From Polystyrenella longa (GTDB taxonomy: Bacteria > Planctomycetota > Planctomycetia > Planctomycetales > Planctomycetaceae), in assembly GCF_007750395.1 (NCBI RefSeq), contig NZ_CP036281.1, positions 5,417,001-5,481,000 on the forward strand: 64,000 nt of DNA. Reading direction: 5' to 3'. Each line of letters starts with the position of its first letter. Position 1 is the first letter of the stretch. Positions 38,721-62,896 of this stretch are shown piece after piece. A program made the position numbers and the translations under genes. A model generated the notes under the pieces. The model saw only the letters and a program-made list of their open reading frames with translations. It searched no databases and was not told the DNA's origin.

Positions 38721-39545
38721 GTGAGTTCTCCCCGCGTTACGATCTGCATTCCGCACTGGCAGGTACAGGATTACATGCGCCTTTGCTTGCGCTCGATCCG
38801 AAAACACTCCGACAATTACGATGTCGAAGTGATTGTCGTCGATAATGGTTCCAAAGACGAGAGCCTCGATTATCTGCGGGGCCTCGACTGGATCCGGTTG
38901 ATTGAAAGACCGGAAGAGGTTCACACCAATTGGCCGAAGAACGTCTTCACCGCTTGGAACCTCGGCTTGAAAGAGGCAACCGGCGAGTACTACGTCACCA
39001 TGCACTCCGATGTTTTCCTCAAGCGGGACGACTGGCTCGACCCGTTTCTGCGAGAGATACAAAAGAGTGATGAAATCGCAGCGACAGGTGCTTGGAAACT
39101 TGTCATGGAGAATCCATTGTACGCCTGGCAAAAACAGGTTGTCGGTTACGCATCGGGACGCATCAAGCAGTTGGTCGGCCTGAAAAAAGAGATTAAATGG
39201 AAGCAGGGGCACTACCCCCGTGATTACTGCGCAATGTATCGTCGTGATGCTTTACTCAAACACGACATGACCTTCCTGCCGATTTACGGACAGGGGGGAG
39301 GCTACTCCATTGCCAAACAGATCTGGGACGCCGGTTACCAGATGGGTATGTTCAGTGTCCGTGAAATGGACCGCGTGCTCTACCATGTCGCCCACGGAAC
39401 CGCCGCTGTAGCCCCGGAAAAGAAGCTCAATCACTCCCGCGCTCAGAAGAAGGTCGAACGCAAAGTCGAAGACCTTTTCCAGGAAAAATGGATTCACAAA
39501 CTCGCCGCGGATGATTCGCTGGATGCAAACCGCCGAGCGGCTTAG
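38721..39545 (+). CDS. family 2 glycosyltransferase
   Basis: A 274-residue cytosolic enzyme. The start is GTG with GCAGGA about 10 nt upstream. The GT2 (GT-A) fold marks are RVTICIPHWQVQDYMRLCLRSI at the start (in two parts), VEVIVVDNGSKDES, and MHSDVFLKRDDW, where the DxD-like H-S-D-V-F binds the nucleotide sugar. The C-terminal region has YRRDALLKHDMTF and a Lys/Arg-rich tail. It could add a sugar to an envelope glycan or a cell-surface lipid. It follows the phosphatase gene on the same strand, perhaps one transcript. Substrates unknown. Confidence 0.88.
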   Translation: MSSPRVTICIPHWQVQDYMRLCLRSIRKHSDNYDVEVIVVDNGSKDESLDYLRGLDWIRLIERPEEVHTNWPKNVFTAWNLGLKEATGEYYVTMHSDVFLKRDDWLDPFLREIQKSDEIAATGAWKLVMENPLYAWQKQVVGYASGRIKQLVGLKKEIKWKQGHYPRDYCAMYRRDALLKHDMTFLPIYGQGGGYSIAKQIWDAGYQMGMFSVREMDRVLYHVAHGTAAVAPEKKLNHSRAQKKVERKVEDLFQEKWIHKLAADDSLDANRRAA

Positions 39546-39722
39546 CCTGTTCTCGGATAGACCGCTTCTCCAAGGGCAAGAGTGACACTGTGTCCCCCAT
39601 CAACAGCTTACACTCTGTCAGAGTGTCTCTGGCTCGCTCCAACAGTGCGAGTAGGGTACACACAAGCGGACACACCCTTGCTGCCCGCGAGTTGGCGTTA
39701 TCTCAAGAAACATTGACTCTTT

Positions 39723-39828
39723 AGAGCGCATTCCAGAAAACCGTAGCGTGTTCTGGCGGCGTAGCCTACTGTTTTTCAGAGCTTTTCGGGACCGATAGCC
39801 GCCACACTTATACTGGACAGGATCTAGC
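39723..39828 (+). repeat. dispersed repeat B, copy 1
   Basis: It starts AGAGCGCATTCCAGA and ends CTGGACAGGATCTAG. It aligns without gaps to the reverse complement of 50492-50597 with about 12 differences in 104 positions. Inner TGGCGGC/GCCGCCA arms make it a potential large hairpin. Confidence 0.85.
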
Positions 39829-39885
39829 TAAAGAGATCGTGCAGAAGAAGACGTTTTGAATCGTACAAAACAGGCCCTGTGACCA

Positions 39886-39908
39886 CACTGCTGGACAAGC
39901 CAGCAGTG
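39886..39908. terminator. perfect 9-bp hairpin, REP-like, after ftsH
   Basis: CACTGCTGG, loop ACAAG, CCAGCAGTG. Just after it, GGCACCC and GGGTGCC form a second long-range pair. It probably ends the ftsH transcript on the minus strand but has no T-run. Confidence 0.55.
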
Positions 39909-39965
39909 GCACCCAGGAGCAAGCTAGTTTGATTCCGGGGTGCCTGTTATCGCCGTTAACTGGCA

Positions 39966-42047
39966 TCACCCTTCTGCCGCTTGGTCTTCTTCGCCGCCGT
40001 CCTCTTCCTCTGACTCTGCGTCCTTCGCGGGAGGCGTTGCTCCCGACGCTGGATTGGCATGAGTGCCGGGACTGATTTTGGGGCTCGTTTTGTATTGAAC
40101 GAGGATCGCCTGGAGTTGCTCGGAGTTCATCACTTCGCTCTCCATTAAATCCTTCGTCAGATGTTCGAGCACCTCCCGACGATCATTCACGATGTCACGA
40201 ACCATAACGAGACATTCATCAATAATACGGCGAACTTCGAGATCGATCTCGCGGATCGTGTCTTCGCTGTGGGCCGTGTCTGAAGCGGTTGCGGAGTTGT
40301 TCAGGAATGGCGATCGTTGGGTTTCACTATAATGTACTCGACCCAGTTTCGGACTCATCCCGTAATCGGTCACCATTCGTCGAGCGATGTCGGTGGCCCG
40401 TTGCAGGTCATTCGACGCACCGGTGGAGAATTCACTGAAGACAATCTCTTCGGAGATCGTTCCTCCCAGAAGCACGCAAATACGATGCTTTAGTTCGGAT
40501 TCGGTATTCAGATACCGTTCCACTTCTGAGTGTTGCAGCATGTAGCCGAGGGCACCGAGGCCACGGGGAATGATCGAGATCTTGTGAACCGGGTCTGTAT
40601 TGGGAAGCGAGCTAGCAACGAGAGCGTGACCACATTCGTGGTAGGCAACGCGGAGTTTTTCGTCTTCCTGAATGATGCGGGTCTGTTTTTCAAGACCGGC
40701 GACGACGCGTTCAATTCCTTCGTCGAATTCGGCCATCGTCACACGTGTTTTATTGTTTCGTACGGCAAGCAGAGCGGCTTCATTCACCAAGTTGGCGAGG
40801 TCCGCACCTACGAAACCGGGACAGTGTTTCGCAATAGTCGTGAGGTTCACGTCATCGGCAAGCTTCACTTTGCCGGCGTGGACTTTGAGGATCGCTTCGC
40901 GACCTTTCACATCGGGTCGGTCGACCAGCACCTGTCGGTCAAAACGGCCCGGCCGCATTAGTGCGGGGTCGAGTGTTTCGGGGCGGTTGGTCGCTGCCAT
41001 CACAATGACGTTTTCATCGGAGGAGAAACCATCCATCTCGACGAGTAGGGCGTTTAAAGTTTGTTCACGTTCATCATGTCCTCCGGGAGAGTTCCCTCGG
41101 ACTTTACCGAGTGCATCGAGCTCATCGATGAAGATAATACTGGGAGACCGCTGTCGGGCCTGAGCGAACATGTCCCGCACACGGGCGGCACCCACGCCGA
41201 CAAACATTTCAACGAAATCGGAACCGGAAAGACCGAAGAAAGGGACACCCGCTTCACCGGCAACGGCTTTGGCAAGCAATGTTTTCCCTGTACCTGGAGG
41301 GCCAACCAGCAGCACTCCATGCGGAATTCGTCCGCCGAGAGCCTGGTATTTTCCGGGTGATTTAAGGAAATCGACAAACTCACAAATCTCTTCAACCGCT
41401 TCGTCGTTACCAGCGACATCTTTGAAAGTGATGCCGATATCATCCTGTGCATACAATTTTCCACGGCTGCGACCAAAGGACATGGCCGAACCCGCTCCCC
41501 CCATGCGTCGCAGCATGAAGAAGAAGATTCCCAGAAATACGAGCAGCATCAGGAACAGAATAAAGGGTTCGCGCCAAGGAGAAGGGGGGGGCGAGAAACC
41601 ATATTCGATTTCCGCCTGCCGCATTTTTTTCTCGAGGTCTTCGCGACCGGGTTCAGACAGCGTATCGATAGAGACTCGATAAGACTTCGTTCCTTCCGGA
41701 CTGCGGCCGGAACTGTCCTGCTTTTGATCCTGAAAATACAGATAGGAAGAACCGATCTGCACATTAAACGTGTTTCGTTTGTTTCGAATGCTCACATCGG
41801 CGGGCAGTTCCGTCAGATCGGCCCCAGCCAAGGTGATTTCCAAACCCCGGACGAAATTGGAATACGGCATCATCTCGCCGTTATCAGACATCCCCGAATA
41901 CTGCGTCGCCACCACGAACAGCACAATCGCGATGAACAACAGCCAGATGCTGTTTCCACCCGACTCTGTCTTGCGCGGTTTTTTTGGCGATTTGTTGGAC
42001 TTCGGGCTCTCCGGTTCCTCGGGGGTGGGAGAAGGTGCGTCGCTCAT
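39966..42047 (-). CDS. ftsH: ATP-dependent zinc metalloprotease FtsH
   Basis: A 693-residue inner-membrane protease that extracts and degrades membrane and regulatory proteins. A Pro/Lys-rich N-tail is followed by two membrane helices (about 32-50 and 161-180) flanking the periplasmic domain. The AAA domain has Walker A GPPGTGKT (249-256), Walker B IIFIDEL (304-310) and the [11 protein letters not shown] pore region. The zinc site is HECGH (His470, Glu471, His474), with Cys where most FtsH proteins have Ala. SRH is [19 protein letters not shown], shown here by its parts ATNRPETLD and RPGRFD. The Asp/Glu-rich C-tail is normal for planctomycetes. Divergent from dxr. Confidence 0.97.
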
Positions 42048-49565: not shown

Positions 49566-50483
49566 TTATTCGGAGACCTGCGTCTGGCGGATGTGGGCGT
49601 AATTTAAAACGGCCACGAAGATGCTGCCGCCGAACGTATTCCCTAATAATGCAATTCCAATGAACCGAAAAACTTCGTAGGGAGTATGCTTGTCGCCAAT
49701 GAACCAGGCGGTGAACATCTCGGCGGAACCCGCGATGGAGTGGTGAAGCCCGCCGAGCCCGATAACAAAAGTCACAATAAACACGACCATGATCTGACTG
49801 CTGTCCGGGGGAGTGGCCAAAACGAGCCAGGCCCCCAATGCCATTAACCATCCGGCCAGCACAGCGCTCACGAATAAAGATTCGAATGAATACTCCGTGA
49901 GATGCTCTCCGATCAGCAGGTAACCTTCTTTTGCCTTCACAACATTATCCGCGATGCTGAGCAGAAATCCAATGATCGCCGCTCCGATCAGGTTTCCGGC
50001 AATTACAATCGACCAGAGGCGTAACAATTTCGGAAATGTGCTGCGACGATCAAGAAAAGGGTACATCGACGTGGCTGTGTGTTCGGTGAAAAGCTGCGCA
50101 CCGCTCATAATACAGATCACGAATCCGAGAGGATATACCAGAGCAGAGGCCAAGCGAGTGAGCAGTACATTCTCCAAGGGATGAGTTAAAGTCACCATGA
50201 CGGCGACCGCCATCGCGGAGAATCCCACAATCATTCCACCAGCCATCGATGACAACCAGAGGGAGACAGCGGGACGTTTAAGTTGCTCACTTCCTTCTTC
50301 AATCGCTTTTTCGAGCGTATCATCCGGATGACGCTGGGCCGCATCGGACCGTTTGATAATCACCGAGATGAAATCTTCCTCTTCCTGTTTACGCTCTTTC
50401 GTTCGCTCCGTGGGAGGAGGGGCATCGGGATGTTCTTTGATGGGGTTACCATCGGAATCCAAGAGTGACTTCGGCTCGTTCAT
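49566..50483 (-). CDS. formate/nitrite transporter family protein
   Basis: A 305-residue inner-membrane channel or transporter of the FNT fold. A cytosolic Glu/Lys/Pro-rich tail of about 75 residues (longer than in FocA) precedes six helices. The family marks are present: SSMAGGMIVGFSAMAV, ALVYPLGFVICIMSGAQLFTEHT (in parts YPLGFVICIMSG and LFTEHT), NLIGAAIIGFLL and HHSIAGSAEMF. Tail length and the motif set resemble the YfdC-type branch, whose substrate is unclear. The leader region immediately upstream is a dispersed repeat (50492-50597), so the transcript probably starts in or beyond it. Confidence 0.92.
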   Translation of the reverse strand: MNEPKSLLDSDGNPIKEHPDAPPPTERTKERKQEEEDFISVIIKRSDAAQRHPDDTLEKAIEEGSEQLKRPAVSLWLSSMAGGMIVGFSAMAVAVMVTLTHPLENVLLTRLASALVYPLGFVICIMSGAQLFTEHTATSMYPFLDRRSTFPKLLRLWSIVIAGNLIGAAIIGFLLSIADNVVKAKEGYLLIGEHLTEYSFESLFVSAVLAGWLMALGAWLVLATPPDSSQIMVVFIVTFVIGLGGLHHSIAGSAEMFTAWFIGDKHTPYEVFRFIGIALLGNTFGGSIFVAVLNYAHIRQTQVSE

Positions 50484-50491
50484 TTCGTTCT

Positions 50492-50597
50492 TAGATCCTG
50501 TCCAGGATTAGTGTGGCGGCTATCGGTCTCGAAAAGCTTTTAAAAGCTGCTGGCTTCGCCGCCAGAACACGCTACAGTTATCTGGAATGCGCTCTAG
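50492..50597 (-). repeat. dispersed repeat B, copy 2 (inverted)
   Basis: The reverse complement of 39723-39828 with about 12 differences in 104 positions: ends GATCCTGTCCAG and TCTGGAATGCGCTCT, inner GTGTGGCGGC and GCCGCCAGAACAC. It starts 8 bases upstream of the transporter start codon. Confidence 0.85.

Positions 50598-62802: not shown

Positions 62803-62896
<94 letters not shown>

Follow-up and report, generated by a model that had tools for sequence, protein, structure and literature searches.

Repeat B, a short dispersed sequence of Polystyrenella longa, is very probably a non-autonomous MITE of the IS630/Tc1-mariner type, moved by an IS630-family transposase into C-TA-R targets. It is an ordinary kind of element and a well identified one; what is special about it is a one-sided palindrome of variable sequence, together with a residency at stop codons that shows a TAG/TAT contrast. 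The window analyzed here, a stretch of 64,000 nucleotides, belongs to a genome consisting of a single contig of 6,125,480 bases (G000), and the other genomes considered were two genus mates (G001 and G002) and other relatives (G015, G017, G045, G071, G094, G095, G110, and G122). Positions 39722-39826 of the window match the complement of 50492-50596 over 105 nt at 89% identity without gaps (E 1.1e-32 in a DNA search of the genome against itself), and thus the inverted repeat pair reported in the preliminary description is real. The 106-bp limits given there paired the right sequences, but their ends were one to two bases out: in the register shared by the whole family, the repeat measures 101 bp (GAGCGC...GGATC) and is bounded by a TA dinucleotide on each side (table 1). 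A search with a model of the copies found only these two in the window, neither of them within a stop codon. Copy 1, whose target reads T-TA-G, sits between two convergent ORFs, 38721-39545 (+) and 39966-42047 (-), which by eye are glycosyltransferase-like and FtsH-like, respectively; copy 2 lies upstream of ORF 49566-50483 (-), with 8 bp between its right TA and the ATG.

Table 1.— Coordinates of the two copies of repeat B, a probable MITE, and of their parts in the window.
Feature	Position	Strand	Basis
Probable MITE, copy 1, 101 bp	39724..39824	+	sequence read, genome search
Left TA of copy 1 target duplication	39722..39723	.	flanks T-TA ... TA-G; family register
Right TA of copy 1 target duplication	39825..39826	.	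family register
Copy 1 left 27-nt end, TA ... GTAGCG, IS630-type	39722..39748	+	other G000 copy scored
Copy 1 right 27-nt end, TA ... GTGGCG, IS630-type inner motif	39800..39826	-	other G000 copy scored
Copy 1 right-terminal palindrome ATACTGGACAGGAT, one pair broken	39810..39823	+	
Copy 1 inner arm TGGCGGC	39754..39760	+	
Copy 1 inner arm GCCGCCA	39798..39804	+	
Probable MITE, copy 2, 101 bp	50494..50594	-	sequence read, genome search
TA at copy 2 left end, flank C	50595..50596	.	
TA at copy 2 right end, flank A	50492..50493	.	
Copy 2 right-terminal palindrome ATCCTGGACAGGAT	50495..50508	-	

A single DNA search of G000 scored 40 copies of repeat B. Searches with the two ends, allowing at most three mismatches, found 59 right ends and 43 left ends, compared with 0 for a reversed control pattern; once these were joined, 61 distinct loci were counted in the 6.13-Mb genome, 41 of them with both ends recognisable. 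The genome-wide count proposed in the preliminary description thus refuted the possibility, also raised there, that only the two copies of the window exist. Mean identity was 0.89 among 38 aligned copies of G000, 0.93 among 20 of G002, and 0.89 among 8 of G001 (three copies were left out of the alignment: L019 and L062 in G000, and L045 in G001, which is cut by a contig end). Between genomes, identity was 0.86 for G000 versus G002 and 0.66 for G000 versus G001. Since identity was higher within than between genomes, each species has its own consensus, and on this comparison of copies each species appears to have amplified its own variant in a species-specific expansion. Both genus mates, as well as other genera, have related families with multiple copies. 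A family-wide, sequence-only model search of 170 genomes, run with stricter filters, and scoring at most 23 matches per genome, gave matches at E<=0.01 in 10 of them, including the three of the genus; outside the genus there were 9 in G015, 13 in G110, 9 in G017, 3 in G095, and one each in G045, G071, and G122, the single matches of G071 and G122 being weak. Over the same 170 genomes a gapped end pattern matched in one genome only. A separate search for 30 exact bases of the right end found 19 stretches in two planctomycete MAGs (NAT128 and HKST-UBA56). The copy model had no match at 19 loci brought in by DDE_3 matches.

In the orientation of the element, the flanks read C-TA on the left and TA-R on the right. 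Among the 37 of 40 G000 copies that were anchored at both ends (three were dropped, with one end unlocated), TA was present at 35/37 left ends and 33/37 right ends; C at -1 was found in 30/37 copies of G000, 18/20 of G002, and 7/8 of G001, and a purine at +1 in 36/37, 20/20, and 8/8, respectively. Six flanking bases were counted, and within them no strong bias was seen beyond C-TA-R. The two sides differ in their use of C versus T on the left and of G versus A on the right (p 1e-6, three genomes); thus, the target is not simply a palindrome. IS630-type elements reportedly prefer TA in CTAG, a preference that Tenzen and Ohtsubo are said to have described in 1991.

The comparison of flanks for target duplications, suggested as a check in the preliminary description, showed that TA is duplicated and also identified exact targets. 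One copy lies within an IS630 transposase gene of G095; with the copy taken out and a single TA left, the codons of this gene read DGAINGN, compared with DGAINGT in G045 and EGAINGQ in G017. The MITE was observed at the same position of the IS630 transposase gene in G095:C308 (L133) and, apparently, at a contig start in G094:C144 (L194), and this shared position indicates that a parent-type element was disrupted by its own MITE. Next to a RAYT gene of G000, a REP-like hairpin is split at its CTAG by a copy of repeat B, with intact REP copies nearby. The gatB gene of G000 ends in ...HIQGN-TAG, this TAG being the target TA plus the G of the element; in the genus mate, the TAG of gatB follows the same residues, and that genome's own copy is located a few bases beyond it. 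An aldo/keto reductase gene has a copy at its end in G002 and none in G001, where its stop (TGA) lies at the same residue. Neither G001 nor G002 has copy 2 of the window in its orthologous intergene, where the distance between matched blocks is 207 bp in G001 versus 304 in the window, and 230 bp in G002 versus 319 in the window; in the region of copy 1, the matched blocks are only ~20 bp apart in G001. This absence and a pair match that stops at the element ends rule out a simple segmental duplication, as does the finding that no pair among the compared copy loci of G000 shares more than 130 nt. Many copies, species-specific expansions, and exact targets with TA duplication bore out the claim of a dispersed and mobile repeat. 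Concerted evolution of orthologous copies, at which shared synteny hinted, was set aside, as the gatB alignment resolved into neighboring independent insertions; alignment of the other two syntenic pairs gave no clear shared site. At L018 (G000:C1:62642), a copy was inserted at the CTA of a seeming leftover right end of another copy, producing a tandem joint.

Like other MITEs, repeat B is short and has many dispersed copies without a transposase gene (101 bp between TAs, 61 loci); as in those of the IS630 type, TA is duplicated at the target, and its 27-nt ends are common to IS630 elements, with an imperfect match that is weaker at the right end. Such IS630 ends, running from TA to AGCG, were read in G045, G017, G094, G095, and G001; the element of G045 starts with TAGAGCGCATT, 11 bases that it shares with repeat B, and in G001 the stop codon of the transposase lies within the right end of the element. 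Scored against a profile of seven IS ends, a small set of related sequences, 14 of 16 MITE ends outscored every one of their 2000 shuffles, and the remaining two outscored 1994 and 1993 of them, with 24.6 bits for the left end and 14.1 bits for the right end. Pfam DDE_3 transposases over the cut-off were found in 7/8 relatives searched, and three tested proteins matched NCBIfam transpos_IS630, two over the cut-off and the G001 fragment below it. At the genus level, the IS630 of the repeat-B group is represented by a C-terminal fragment only, at a contig start of G001. G000 yielded no IS630 transposase of this group (none of 13 DDE_3 matches was over the cut-off, and a second search gave 0 at E<=0.1), and neither did G015. 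Thus, the repeat families of these two genomes look orphaned, and that of G000 is probably silent; a same-genome transposase is not required for MITE membership. Three DDE_3 loci of G000 were looked at as partners and rejected, being by eye other transposases or an unrelated relic (L073). Just past the right end of the window, at G000:C1 5482761-5693990, several transposase ORFs of similar size with weak DDE_3 matches were observed over ~0.2 Mb, among them L077, which is rve-like by eye. From the matching ends and the known behavior of IS630 and ISY100, we infer trans-mobilisation by cut and paste, in which an IS630-family transposase would bind the 27-nt ends (TA ... TAA.TGTAGCG), excise the 101-bp unit, and insert it at TA with a preference for C-TA-R, the TA being duplicated.

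The phase of insertion at gene ends was addressed in 112 fetched loci (61 in G000, 28 in G002, and 23 in G001), of which 111 gave a model hit; these loci are a lower bound, as G002 has further copies and G001 possibly does. Open frames of at least 150 aa entering an element end were scored for their phase relative to TA, at the right ends of the three genomes and at the left ends of G000 reading TAG (the duplicate L224 was dropped). With copies treated as independent, 34/36 such frames were in phase with TA, comprising 12/13 at left and 8/8 at right ends in G000, and 11/12 and 3/3 at right ends in G002 and G001; the end read a stop in 33 of these 34 cases and had decayed to GGG in one. Copies at stop codons as a rule face the gene with an end that reads TAG. 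Left ends without TAG, which as a rule read TAT, met five frames, two of them in phase (L044 and L252). A Pfam family was found for 17/20 G000 proteins at stop-codon copies (e.g., TsaD, GatB, AdoHcyase, and PfkB), for 5/9 tested in G002 (one, L070, below the family cut-off), and for 1/1 tested in G001, the test covering 10 of the 12 proteins listed for the latter two genomes. Since several profiles also reach the last residues of these proteins, the genes look intact, with the element supplying the stop. In the PAP2 gene, a copy occupies the same stop codon of the orthologue in G000 and G002 (L226/L066); being common to two species, it must be old and kept, which hints at retention. In other genera, phase-0 frames were seen at TAG ends (e.g., L135, L138, L142, and L113), and other phases also occurred (L140, L144, and L146). 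At L044 and L252 of G002, the nonstop TAT end faces a long gene in phase 0, and translation would continue past the gene into the element, at L044 up to a stop 300 nt further; new C-terminal tails are possible there.

Stop-codon loci numbered 20/61 in G000, 12/28 fetched in G002, and 3/23 in G001, compared with 17% expected. The null consisted of C-TA-R sites on 464 kb of G000 under the same ORF rule: 89 were at stop codons (52 left-facing and 37 right-facing), 926 fell within long frames, and the other 447 lay outside such frames but away from stops, so that 16.6% are at stops when sites within long frames are left out. A null taken from the window only (8 stop and 130 intergenic sites; 5.8% vs 33%) gave a larger excess and was set aside for this fairer one. 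The proportion in G000 was 33%, about twofold (p 0.0015); among its better-conserved copies, the 40 scored in one search, it was 17/40 (p 1e-4), compared with 3/21 among less conserved loci (p 0.04), whose decayed ends are harder to score. The excess in G002 (p 0.001) persisted when only TAG-reading ends were counted (10/28, p 0.012), and none was seen in G001 (13%, p 0.76), where 7/46 flanks were under 450 nt. A transposase that truly prefers gene ends beyond C-TA-R would produce the excesses of G000 and G002; however, we regard it as unlikely, as G001 lacks an excess, the left:right facing of 12:8 in G000 equals the site supply of 52:37, and selection against insertion near promoters would yield the same result. 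Such selection may account for the two- to threefold excess in two of the three genomes. In G002, left:right facing was 2:11 (L252 faces at both ends; p 0.006 against the supply measured in G000), and the left end there mostly reads TAT and seldom faces the stop of a gene; the simplest reading is that left ends turning a stop into tyrosine were selected out. C-TA-R covers TAA and TAG, and in most ends the TA is followed by G; a copy inserted into a stop codon therefore restores a TAG there, and the protein is not altered. Stop codons would then be safe landing places within genes, where surviving copies collect, and we infer selection as the cause of both this collection and its orientation. 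Whether the ends were themselves shaped by selection as stop codons, so that the element is adapted to them, is a more doubtful suggestion, in which the most recently amplified subfamily of G000 would be the one with TAG at both ends; if true, imprecise loss of a copy would become difficult as soon as a gene relies on the TAG that it provides.

The location of many copies at gene 3′ ends could also suggest a conserved regulatory RNA or 3′-UTR element with no transposon involved, as could the PAP2 copy and a palindrome confined to the right end, immediately ahead of the final (C)TA. This palindrome reads ATCCT-GGAC-AGGAT in G000 and G002 (191/200 and 96/100 paired cells), ATCTT...AAGAT in G001 (39/40), AGCAG...CTGCT in G015 (45/45), GTGCC...GGCAC in G110 (65/65), G095 (15/15), and one G017 copy (5/5), and GTGCG...CGCAC in G045 (5/5), compared with roughly 20-60% pairing in a slid control. 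Its sequence thus varies between families while pairing is kept; since the copies of any one genome are related to each other, roughly independent evidence comes from the five arm sequences only. A second G017 family (7 copies) lacks the palindrome (13/35 paired, the same as the slid control), it was not clearly visible by eye in the IS630 ends read, and there is no T-run such as a terminator would have. A functional RNA was rejected, as the fold of the window copy did not stand out from shuffles (z 0.28 and -0.70 for the two strands), a 66-copy alignment of three genomes gave only four consensus pairs, at the inner arms, and Rfam at the gathering threshold found no family at the repeat, its sole match in the window being a tRNA at 62808-62896. 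The TGGCGGC/GCCGCCA arms of the preliminary description are present, but the idea of a functional hairpin formed by them is weak, and the consensus folding proposed there predicted more pairs within single genomes, though different ones from genome to genome. Exact targets, TA duplication, ends shared with IS630, and insertion into a transposase gene, as well as a gene orientation that varies by species (12 left:8 right in G000, 2:11 in G002), further argue against the RNA or 3′-UTR explanation, which we consider very unlikely. Also very unlikely, in our view the least probable explanation, is a REP/RAYT-type element moved by a REP-associated tyrosine transposase via single-stranded hairpins. 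The palindromic right end would fit it, and a RAYT gene is present in G000 with one copy about 430 bp away; however, that copy has inserted into a REP hairpin, one of those that surround the gene, and three other Y1-transposase loci of G000 have no copy within 1.5 kb on each side. The duplication of TA largely refutes it, as HUH enzymes are not known to duplicate their target.

Several known systems resemble repeat B in part. RUP of pneumococcus is an IS630-Spn1-derived MITE of 107 bp with 108-110 copies and a TA target; like repeat B, it has IS630-like ends and also lies inside IS transposase genes (PMC2229807, PMC3049150), and by analogy repeat B appears to work in the same way. RUP differs in belonging to another phylum and in having its IS630 common in the host species, and the passages on RUP mention neither stop-codon phasing nor a one-sided palindrome, both features of repeat B. 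ISY100, of the IS630 family, is described as inserting at TA and duplicating it (PMC2170065); this duplication is shared by repeat B with IS630/Tc1-mariner elements (ISY100 and IS630), which, unlike it, carry a transposase. According to the passages on Correia/NEMIS of Neisseria, these elements resemble repeat B in a short form of 107 bp and in their presence in transposase genes (PMC2229807), whereas their reading frames fuse to other ORFs and the ends of repeat B supply a stop. BOX of pneumococcus provides genes with their stop codon in 36 cases, but BOX is modular, and the passages on it do not describe TA-target insertion into the stop codon itself (PMC3049150). REPs are given as 20-40 bp, tagged by GTAG or CGTC and linked to IS200/IS605-type transposases, and REP/RAYT systems have been reported in Planctomycetes (PMC3733652). 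They share palindromes and intergenic spread with repeat B, which differs from such tagged units of 20-40 bp without target duplication in being 101 bp long and duplicating TA. A literature search, weak in that it covered few subscription journals, found no published planctomycete MITE of the repeat-B kind and no stop-codon-phased MITEs.

Repeat B provides this planctomycete family with a group of MITEs whose IS630 partners can be traced. It also accounts for the stop codons of certain conserved genes (tsaD, gatB, and an AdoHcyase gene), which consist in part of transposon DNA. The sister families differ in TAG versus TAT at one end, and their facing of genes differs accordingly, which is a natural experiment; why short repeats collect at gene ends thereby becomes testable. 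Two further repeats were observed beside copies of repeat B. At L090:1200-2700 (G000:C1 near 5948645), a RAYT gene (NF047646) lies amid REP-like hairpins and near-repeats of a larger block, and the repeat-B copy in the L090 REP is split by a further element of ~85 bp with the ends AGGCCATTTCAAAACCC and GGGTTTTGAAACTACT and a short target repeat. In the window, a separate short palindromic repeat at 39893-39912 (hairpin about 39883-39912), GGACAAGCCAGCAGTGGCAC with its partner arm, has one match in the window and many short matches in both genus mates; it is REP-like and perhaps tied to the RAYT genes.
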